The notes beneath the pieces are model-generated. The model saw only the letters and a program-made list of their open reading frames with translations, was not told the DNA's origin and ran no database searches. Of a stretch of 43,962 nucleotides of DNA, positions 4,730-31,941 are shown piece by piece. The position numbers and the translations under genes were made by a program. Position 1 is the first letter of the stretch. Each line of letters opens with the position of its first letter. The stretch comes from Lutibacter sp. (GTDB lineage Bacteria; Bacteroidota; Bacteroidia; Flavobacteriales; Flavobacteriaceae): positions 1-43,962 of the forward strand of contig JAUSOJ010000226.1 in assembly GCA_030656195.1 (NCBI GenBank), written 5' to 3'.

Positions 4730-4756
4730 TTGGTTTTCAAAGTATTTGTACATTTG
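4730..4756 (+). promoter_or_regulatory. Bacteroidota-type promoter for the Cys-rich small ORF
   Basis: TTG at 4730-4732, a 16-nt spacer, then TACATTTG at 4749-4756, which matches the TAnnTTTG -7 consensus. The predicted transcript would start around 4760, about 20 nt before the TTG start codon at 4782. Confidence 0.5.
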
Positions 4757-4781
4757 TTTAAAATCATTCTAAATAAGCATT

Positions 4782-4943
4782 TTGGGAACTACAGATATTT
4801 CAGGTATTTTTAATTACGATTTTGATTGGAGCGCTTCAACCAAAAAGAAGACACACGTTGAGATAAATGAAAAATGCTGCGAAAAATTCAAGAATAAAAG
4901 CAACAAGACTTGTAAAAAATGCCCAAATCGCGTGACCGAATAG
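4782..4943 (+). CDS. Small Cys-rich protein (53 residues), TTG start
   Basis: Reads MGTTDISGIFNYDFDWSAS, then a Lys-rich segment, then CCEKF, a short spacer, TCKKCP and a terminal NRVTE before TAG. The in-frame stop at 4770-4772 limits the start to ATA, ATT or TTG codons; TTG 4782 is the best. The composition is protein-like: an acidic/aromatic N-terminal half and a basic four-cysteine C-terminal half (CC then CxxC), suggesting metal binding or a redox role. It has its own TTG-N16-TACATTTG promoter and lies 41 nt before the ClC gene on the same strand. I do not recognise a named family. Confidence 0.6.
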   Translation: MGTTDISGIFNYDFDWSASTKKKTHVEINEKCCEKFKNKSNKTCKKCPNRVTE

Positions 4944-4954
4944 CTTTATTTTAA

Positions 4955-4962
4955 TATTTTTG
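4955..4962 (+). promoter_or_regulatory. -7 promoter element for ClC gene
   Basis: TATTTTTG matches TAnnTTTG and is followed by GTACCTCCTTTC, similar to common flavobacterial transcription start contexts. It lies 22 nt before the ATG at 4985. No clear -33 TTG was identified. Confidence 0.45.
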
Positions 4963-4984: not shown

Positions 4985-6775
4985 ATGTCAGCATTTTCAA
5001 AAAAATTATTTCTTAAATTTTTAAAGTGGAGATATCATCATATTTCCAACAAACAATTCACCAATATAGCGAGTGCCATTATAGGATTGTTGGCCGGTTT
5101 GGCCGCTGTGGTTCTAAAAAACTTAACGCATTTCATCCAAAATTTACTGGAAGAAGGATTTATCAAACAAATACATCAGGCATTTTACTTTATTTTCCCA
5201 ATTCTGGGCTTTTTAATTGTATTGCTGCTTATAAAATATGTGGTTCGAAAAAAAGTGGGACACGGAATTCCATCCACCTTATACGCCATTTCAAAATTAA
5301 AGGGAATTATGCCAAAACACCAAATGTGGGCATCTTTAATCACGGCGCCGCTAACAGTTGGTTTTGGAGGATCTGTCGGACTGGAAGGCCCAACCGTTGC
5401 CACTGGCGCTGCCATTGGCTCTAATTTTGCCCGTTTTTTTCATTTAAATCAAACCACAAGAACCTTGCTTATTGGAGCTGCTGCCGCCGGCGCTATGTCG
5501 TCAATATTTAAAGCGCCCATTGCCGCCATTGTTTTTGCGGTGGAGATTTTTAGTTTGGAACTTACGCTGGCTTCTATGATTCCATTATTATTGGCTTCAA
5601 TTACCGCGGTGTTAACTTCCTATTTCTTTTTTGGGGACGATGTTTTGCTTCATTTTATCATACAGGATAAATTTGAGCTAAACGATGTGTTGTTTTATGT
5701 TTTATTGGGCGTTGCCTGTGCAACAGCTTCCATTTATTTCAGTAAAATGTATTTTGCAATCAGCAATTTCTTCAAAAAATTCGAAAATCCCTATGTTCGA
5801 TTACTTATTGGAGGTCTCTCGCTTGGTGTAATTGTTTATTTTATTCCAACACTTTTTGGCGAAGGTTATGAAACCATCAACAATATTTTGAGAGGAAATA
5901 TTGGCAGCGTGGTTCAAAATAATATTTTTCAGATATTCACGGACAATACCTATTTCATCATCCTGTTTTTAATTTGTTTAATCACCTTTAAAGTAATTGC
6001 CACGTCGCTCACTTTTGGCGCTGGTGGTGTCGGCGGTATTTTTGCGCCAACTTTATTTACGGGAAGCGTAACGGGTTATGTTTTTGCTATGATGGTGAAC
6101 GCCAGTAAAATGTTCAGTCACCAGCTTTCTTTAACCAATTTTGCGATGGTTGGTATGGCCGGCTTAATGGCGGGTATTTTACAGGCGCCTTTAACAGCGA
6201 TATTTCTGATTGCTGAAATTACCGGCGGTTATGAGCTTTTTGTGCCATTAATGATTGTGGCGCTGATTTCTTTTGTCATCACCCAAAAATTTGTGCCTTA
6301 TAATATTTATGCTTCCGAATTGGCGAAAAAAGGGCAACTCATTACCCACGACAAAGATAAAAACGTGCTCATGATGCTCGATTTGGATAAATTGATTGAA
6401 AAGGATTTTGTGCTGCTTCATCCCGAAATGACCTTGGGTGACGTGGTAAATAATGCCATTGCAAAATCGTCCCGAAACCATTTTCCTGTCGTAAATGAAG
6501 AAAATGATTATTTGGGAATATTGACCATCAACGATATCAGAAGCATTATGTTTGATAAGGATTTATACGATACGGTAAAAGTCGAAAGTTTAATGCACGC
6601 CGGTTCCGATATTATTTATTACGAAAAAGATTCAGCAGAAGATATTTTAAATAAGTTTAAAAGGTGCGGCGCCTGGAATTTGGTGGTGTTTAAAGACGGC
6701 AAATACTTCGGATTTATATCCAAATCGCGATTGCTTACCGCCTATCGAAGAAAATTGATTGATGTAACTGCTTAG
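4985..6775 (+). CDS. ClC-family chloride channel/transporter with C-terminal CBS pair
   Basis: 596 residues. The ClC membrane domain spans roughly residues 30-440, with conserved ion-pathway motifs GHGIPST (normally GSGIP, so His replaces the Ser), GSVGLEGP (with the gating Glu; the usual Arg of GREGP is Leu) and GGVGGIFAPTL. The C-terminal 150 residues form two CBS motifs (around FVLLHPEMTLGDVVNNAI and VESLMHAGSDIIYYEKDSA), which in this family bind nucleotides and gate transport. It is an inner-membrane protein moving chloride or a related anion. Intact, normal length. Copy A of the composite repeat begins 25 nt after the stop codon. Confidence 0.9.
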   Translation: MSAFSKKLFLKFLKWRYHHISNKQFTNIASAIIGLLAGLAAVVLKNLTHFIQNLLEEGFIKQIHQAFYFIFPILGFLIVLLLIKYVVRKKVGHGIPSTLYAISKLKGIMPKHQMWASLITAPLTVGFGGSVGLEGPTVATGAAIGSNFARFFHLNQTTRTLLIGAAAAGAMSSIFKAPIAAIVFAVEIFSLELTLASMIPLLLASITAVLTSYFFFGDDVLLHFIIQDKFELNDVLFYVLLGVACATASIYFSKMYFAISNFFKKFENPYVRLLIGGLSLGVIVYFIPTLFGEGYETINNILRGNIGSVVQNNIFQIFTDNTYFIILFLICLITFKVIATSLTFGAGGVGGIFAPTLFTGSVTGYVFAMMVNASKMFSHQLSLTNFAMVGMAGLMAGILQAPLTAIFLIAEITGGYELFVPLMIVALISFVITQKFVPYNIYASELAKKGQLITHDKDKNVLMMLDLDKLIEKDFVLLHPEMTLGDVVNNAIAKSSRNHFPVVNEENDYLGILTINDIRSIMFDKDLYDTVKVESLMHAGSDIIYYEKDSAEDILNKFKRCGAWNLVVFKDGKYFGFISKSRLLTAYRRKLIDVTA

Positions 6776-31873: not shown

Positions 31874-31941
31874 AGCGATTTTTAGGGTTGTTCTTGGGAG
31901 GTTTTAAAATAATTTTAAATTCATACGTTTAAAATTATTGG

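Follow-up and report, generated by a model that had tools for sequence, protein, structure and literature searches.

A conserved cysteine-rich mini-protein of Flavobacteriaceae as a candidate ferritin-associated [2Fe-2S] mini-ferredoxin

The described systems that come closest to the gene treated here are the small ferredoxin Bfd, which acts on bacterioferritin, and the siderophore reductase FhuF. Bfd reduces the iron of bacterioferritin via the haem of the latter (PMC12363616), and its gene, which adjoins bfr in Escherichia coli, is described as being differentially expressed from this adjacent gene (PMC7762939). Bfd of Pseudomonas aeruginosa has been reported not to bind FtnA (PMC10281387), and the exit of iron from ferritins other than bacterioferritin is presented as generally poorly understood (PMC12363616). 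The [2Fe-2S] cluster motif of FhuF has been published as C-C-x10-C-x2-C, and low iron lifts the repression of E. coli FhuF by way of Fur (PMC8068687). A Fur box, ATTTAGAATTATTCTAAAT, is given for Riemerella anatipestifer, an organism placed with Flavobacterium by the same source, which selected four promoters for gel shift and reports binding of Fur (PMC5609570).

The window, i.e., the whole stretch of DNA that was analysed, comprises 43,962 nucleotides of a Lutibacter genome (contig JAUSOJ010000226.1). A sequence-only reading of it had proposed that a 53-codon frame with a TTG start at 4782–4943 on the forward strand is a conserved gene preceded by a promoter of its own. The frame was found as it had been set out, including its FNYDFDW block and its CC and CxxC pairs. 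So was the promoter, which is of the Bacteroidota type (4730–4756, forward strand), was recognised by its sequence, and consists of a -33 TTG at 4730–4732, a spacer of 16 bases and the -7 element TACATTTG at 4749–4756; it is near-identical in many copies of the genus. Directly 3′ of the -7 element, and between it and the TTG start, lies the inverted repeat TTTAAAATCATTCTAAA (4757–4773), which resembles a Fur box and is a putative operator. The encoded protein has 53 aa and is basic. The codons of its four cysteines C32, C33, C44, and C47 (numbered in the M-first reading) extend over 4875–4922 and form a CC-x10-C-x2-C motif of the FhuF type, which is followed by a proline. A second -7 element, TATTTTTG, which is promoter-like in sequence, is located at 4955–4962 on the same strand ahead of the conserved neighbour of the mini-gene, a gene at 4985–6775 (forward strand) for a ClC-type chloride channel or transporter with CBS domains (Voltage_CLC, E = 1.9e-84; CBS, E = 3.7e-12).

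A search with the peptide against 60 relatives retrieved matching frames in 36 of them at E ≤ 0.1. Within the genus, 32 of the 37 genomes contained a match, the genome of the window included; two of these matches were weak (G013 and G023, the latter with in-frame stops) and yielded no locus, and the homologous frame was present at the same locus in all 30 genus loci that were fetched. G006 and G011, two genomes of the genus with a completeness rating of 99%, have a ferritin gene and no detected mini-gene. Among the 12 closest copies, pN was smaller than pS in each of the 66 pairs, the median dN/dS was 0.18 over 65 pairs (one pair was excluded because of its low dS), and the 66 variable columns were distributed over codon positions 1, 2, and 3 as 15, 16, and 35. 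This is a coding type of substitution pattern; the mini-gene is under purifying selection in the genus, and the open reading frame at 4782–4943 is a real conserved gene, as had been proposed. The position of the start is conserved as well. It lies exactly 11 codons before the core tyrosine in 25 of 29 aligned genus copies, and the codon at or nearest to this place is TTG or GTG in 28 copies and ATG in one (the copy at L021, whose sequence has the same motif, was omitted from both the alignment and the start-codon counts). Genes of about 50 codons that often start with TTG or GTG are easily overlooked, and the weak starts of the mini-gene possibly reflect selection for low translation. A potential paralogue at G000:C26, where a 41-base DNA match is located, was rejected, as the protein search recovered solely the copy of the window.

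The CC-x10-C-x2-C motif and the proline behind it are invariant in all 29 aligned genus copies. Either a metal site or thiol chemistry had been suggested for the four cysteines in the sequence-only reading, and it is the former, as a metal or cluster site, that their invariance supports. The spacing is exactly that of the C-terminal domain of FhuF: cysteines 244, 245, 256, and 259 of the E. coli protein lie in CCQRYRLPDVQQCGDC, the counterpart in the window is CCEKFKNKSNKTCKKC, and an aromatic residue is found three positions after the second cysteine in both. Consistent with this likeness, the NCBIfam model TIGR03950 (siderophore ferric iron reductase) was matched by 28 of the 29 aligned genus copies, with a best E of 7e-5, and by 36 of the 39 members of a wider alignment, and TIGR03951 by 13 of the 29 genus members; the scores listed were far under the curated cut-offs. 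The protein of the window itself reached 17.8 bits against TIGR03950 (cut-off 137.9) and aligned to model positions 195–223 of 223. The Pfam family FhuF_C (PF11575) was matched by eight of the 29 genus members (best E = 0.0064); the window protein matched no Pfam family up to an E-value of 1, FhuF_C and Fer2_BFD included. Membership in full-length FhuF was rejected on account of size (53 aa vs. 262 aa) and of the absent large N-terminal substrate domain, the mini-protein differing from FhuF in that its four cysteines stand alone in a basic protein of about 50 aa. Judged by these comparisons, the resemblance appears to be one at the motif level and not one of family membership, and CC-x10-C-x2-C probably binds a [2Fe-2S] cluster. 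An AlphaFold2 model of the window protein with 12 relatives was poor (mean pLDDT 56), and a profile search of the PDB for a solved relative gave one weak match to a lectin (E = 0.24).

Outside the genus the family is widespread. The genus profile matched 40 of 299 Flavobacteriaceae genomes at E ≤ 0.001, and a wider profile built from 39 rows matched 141 of 299, representing 116 of 236 genera, at E ≤ 0.01. In a draw of 395 genomes from the phylum, 21 genomes were matched at E ≤ 0.001, four of which belong to other families of the class. The genomic surroundings were covered for all 138 non-genus matches of the wider-profile search. A CC-x8..12-CxxC motif is present in 136 of these copies, with ten intervening residues in 120, eight in eight, eleven in six, and nine in two copies; L184 and L234, where the motif is absent, were left out of the 136. 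None of the eight x8 copies (L160, L173, L178, L182, L194, L210, L211, and L223) and none of the six x11 copies (L051, L060, L067, L123, L125, and L155) has a ferritin gene within 1.5 kb, and the Fur-like box described below, found for three and one of them, respectively, is rarer than elsewhere in the family. These copies are probably paralogues, or separate sister families with another context.

A ferritin gene was detected by tblastn within 1.5 kb of 96 of the 138 non-genus copies. In every one of these 96 linked loci it precedes the mini-gene and shares its strand, in 95 of them within 300 nt; for 40 of the 136 motif-bearing copies no ferritin gene lies within 1.5 kb. Under a generous null model with four ferritin-type genes per 2-Mb genome, which ignores the kinship of the genomes, approximately one linked locus would be expected; the ferritin–mini pair is moreover flanked by several different gene sets across the loci. 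Ferritin is thus the usual genomic partner of the mini-gene, which distinguishes it from FhuF. Six linked ferritins were scanned and all matched Pfam Ferritin (E = 7e-39 to 2e-33), and the ferritins that were aligned (three linked ones and that of the window's own genome) resemble E. coli FtnA and not Bfr, the own-genome ferritin having an identity of 37% to FtnA and of 18% to Bfr. The linked pairs also match in subtype: type-A mini-proteins are encoded beside type-A ferritins in 71 of 71 cases and type-B mini-proteins beside type-B ferritins in 25 of 25, with ferritin types set by best match and mini-protein types by a pattern in the C-terminus that was devised after the sequences had been seen. 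Shared descent of the pairs explains this matching as well as co-adaptation does. The isoelectric points of mini-protein and ferritin (9.0 and 4.9) parallel those of E. coli Bfd and Bfr (8.8 and 4.7), and such opposite charges would fit docking of the two proteins.

Upstream regions were scored with a 23-base version of the Riemerella palindrome against dinucleotide shuffles (p ≤ 0.05). For the non-genus copies, the upstream stretch began 230 bases ahead of the CC codons and ended 60 bases ahead of them, and equal downstream stretches served as controls. A Fur-like box was found upstream of 23 of the 29 genus copies and of 114 of the 136 non-genus copies, compared with five of the 136 downstream controls. 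By context, it occurs in 88 of 96 copies with a linked ferritin and in 26 of 40 copies without. The scoring of the genus copies also took in 45 “other” loci, from which two of the 20 loci of the phylum draw (L096 and L098) were omitted because their genomes had already been counted. E. coli FhuF is under Fur control, and most mini-genes are preceded by a Fur-box-like site, a putative iron-responsive switch. The genome of the window has one gene of the FUR family, and the Fur-like pattern, when one mismatch was allowed, occurred at 19 places in this genome (six for the reversed control). Fifteen of the pattern loci were examined. Four of them concern iron or Fe-S genes, namely the mini-gene, feoA (accompanied by feoB, which was identified by inspection), a SufS-like gene for a class-V aminotransferase, and an FNR-like reductase with a Fer2 ferredoxin; the other 11 have no obvious link to iron, and some of the sites are intragenic. 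In the last-named of the four loci (L090, G000:C252) the one-mismatch box is followed by the gene of the FNR-like pyridine-nucleotide/flavin reductase and then by that of the ferredoxin. The window contains a second exact match, TTTAAAATAATTTTAAA at 31903–31919 (L081), which is unlikely to be an operator because it lies between two convergent ORFs.

In Riemerella the ferritin is reported to be raised approximately twofold under iron restriction, with or without fur, and the account given there of feoA and feoB is that they are not raised in a fur mutant supplied with iron (PMC5609570). As ferritin increases at low iron in this organism, mini-protein and ferritin may rise together there, and opposite control in the manner of bfd and bfr is not borne out by this one flavobacterium looked at.

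The surroundings of the mini-gene in Lutibacter deviate from those in the rest of the family. A position beside an iron-storage partner, which was found for the 96 linked copies outside the genus, was seen in none of the 30 genus loci, all of which instead have the ClC gene downstream on the same strand. Near the 136 motif-bearing copies from outside the genus, a ClC gene was found in six cases, always downstream. Two of these loci (L057 and L222) show the order ferritin–mini–ClC, and the other four (L055, L170, L175, and L193) have mini–ClC without ferritin; inspection by eye recognised an aspartyl-tRNA synthetase gene upstream in L055, in L057, and in the genus loci L015, L028, and L032. The gene order in L057 and L222 suggests that the ClC-linked genus copies are orthologous to the ferritin-linked family. 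The simplest history is an ancestral order aspS–ferritin–mini–ClC from which ferritin was later lost: the adjacent ferritin seems to be gone from the Lutibacter locus, and the adjacent ClC gene appears to be a remnant of the ferritin–mini–ClC order. Because the usual partner elsewhere is ferritin and the ClC gene has its own TATTTTTG element, the adjacency of mini-gene and ClC gene is probably incidental. A gene with PF00210 is present in all 37 genus genomes, and the mini-protein of Lutibacter would have to serve a ferritin that is encoded elsewhere. In the genome of the window this ferritin gene is on another contig (L076) and is of type A, and ten other PF00210 genes of the genus comprise three of type A, one distant Ftn, and six that are Bfr-like. 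The ClC-linked mini-protein of the genus is type-B-like although the ferritin of its own genome is of type A, a finding that counts against the main reading proposed below.

The mini-protein and Bfd are both small, basic, and of the [2Fe-2S] type (as predicted for the mini-protein), and both are encoded beside an iron store; like Bfd, the mini-protein apparently has its own promoter and operator. Their cysteines differ in arrangement (C4, C6, C39, and C42 in E. coli Bfd vs. CC-x10-C-x2-C), and since the mini-protein also has no match to Fer2_BFD (PF04324), membership in the Bfd family was rejected. Furthermore, the partner of the mini-protein is an Ftn-type ferritin, whereas that of Bfd is the haem-containing bacterioferritin, and the ferritin gene comes first in the mini-gene loci, unlike in the Bfd system. 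The 60 relatives yielded no stand-alone Bfd; their 22 matches to Fer2_BFD (in nine genomes) were all located in open frames of at least 356 aa.

Taken together, we give a little better than an even chance to the reading that the mini-protein is a Fur-controlled, FhuF-type [2Fe-2S] mini-ferredoxin which passes electrons to ferritin and thereby frees iron, as an analogue of Bfd that is not homologous to it. Under iron scarcity, Fur would leave the box at 4757–4773 and the mini-gene would be expressed. The CC-x10-C-x2-C motif of its product, known from the C-terminal domain of FhuF and here free-standing, would bind a [2Fe-2S] cluster, and the basic protein, once reduced, would dock to a non-haem ferritin at the acidic surface of the latter, so that electrons could pass to the ferric mineral and Fe2+ would be released. 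The mini-protein may be recharged by a reductase of the ferredoxin-NADP type; a possible electron source is the FNR/ferredoxin pair that is likewise preceded by a Fur-like box. It would in this way do for the flavobacterial Ftn what Bfd does for the haem-containing bacterioferritin. The more general claim, that a hitherto undescribed family of FhuF_C-type mini-ferredoxins, subtype-matched, Fur-controlled, and often with TTG or GTG starts, frees iron from the non-haem ferritins of flavobacteria independently of Bfd, is put forward tentatively, at slightly under an even chance. Among the open-licence papers retrieved by literature searches, no title or abstract beginning contained a description of a ferritin-linked small protein of such kind. 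With its Fur-box-like operator and its gene directly behind that of an Ftn-type ferritin across much of this large family of bacteria, the mini-protein is a concrete and testable candidate for the missing reductant, and if the reading is true, the cluster motif of a siderophore reductase also exists as a free-standing carrier.

Much of the same evidence would suit an iron or Fe-S chaperone or assembly factor, which loads ferritin or carries the released Fe2+ without electron transfer. The ferritin linkage, the conserved cysteines, and the pairing of a basic protein with an acidic ferritin apply to it equally, and the increase of the Riemerella ferritin at restricted iron (PMC5609570) would allow both proteins to act together. 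We nevertheless regard such a factor as unlikely, since a cysteine spacing identical to that of FhuF argues for a redox [2Fe-2S] cluster and a Fur-box-like operator suits release better than loading. A somewhat smaller probability still is assigned to a stand-alone FhuF-like reductase for ferric siderophores or another ferric substrate, whose linkage to ferritin would merely reflect shared iron physiology: the absence of the whole FhuF substrate domain from a protein of 53 aa (FhuF has 262 aa) and the usual neighbourhood of a ferritin of matching subtype weigh against it, despite the identical motif, the weak matches to TIGR03950 and FhuF_C, and the Fur-like box.

The remaining explanations are less probable again. 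Many small proteins coordinate zinc by means of CxxC pairs, and the mini-protein is rich in lysine with a pI of 9–10, as might be expected of a small zinc-binding RNA- or DNA-binding protein, perhaps a regulator in iron stress; zinc ribbons, however, are not usually known to contain a vicinal CC pair spaced by x10, and together with the ferritin linkage and the Fur-like box this makes such a function improbable. That the protein modulates the neighbouring ClC channel, as its adjacency in 30 of 30 genus loci might suggest, is very improbable, and a ClC-linked function was rejected, given a ClC gene near just six of 136 copies elsewhere and the separate promoter-like element of the channel gene. 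The shortness of the frame and its non-ATG start would be compatible with an untranslated regulatory leader or a chance frame, but an RNA leader or chance frame was rejected on the dN/dS of 0.18, and the conserved start position and cysteine pattern and the occurrence in 141 of 299 genomes reduce the probability of an untranslated element to almost nil.

Some further features of the family and its partners were observed. Bfr-like bacterioferritins are encoded in some genus genomes (L241, L242, and L244–L247), with an identity of 40–43% to E. coli Bfr, although the search for a stand-alone Bfd had given none in the genus. Type-B mini-proteins (L056, L070, L074, and L075, among others) often possess at least two extra cysteines in a short N-terminal part, for instance in the form SSCGDC or NDCSAC. 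Among the non-genus copies of the GKK type, the start codon is TTG or GTG in 55 of the 81 that could be read (37 TTG, 18 GTG, and 26 ATG), nine of the 90 slots before GKK not being start codons, whereas type-A ferritins have ATG in 45 of the 46 matches that reach their start.
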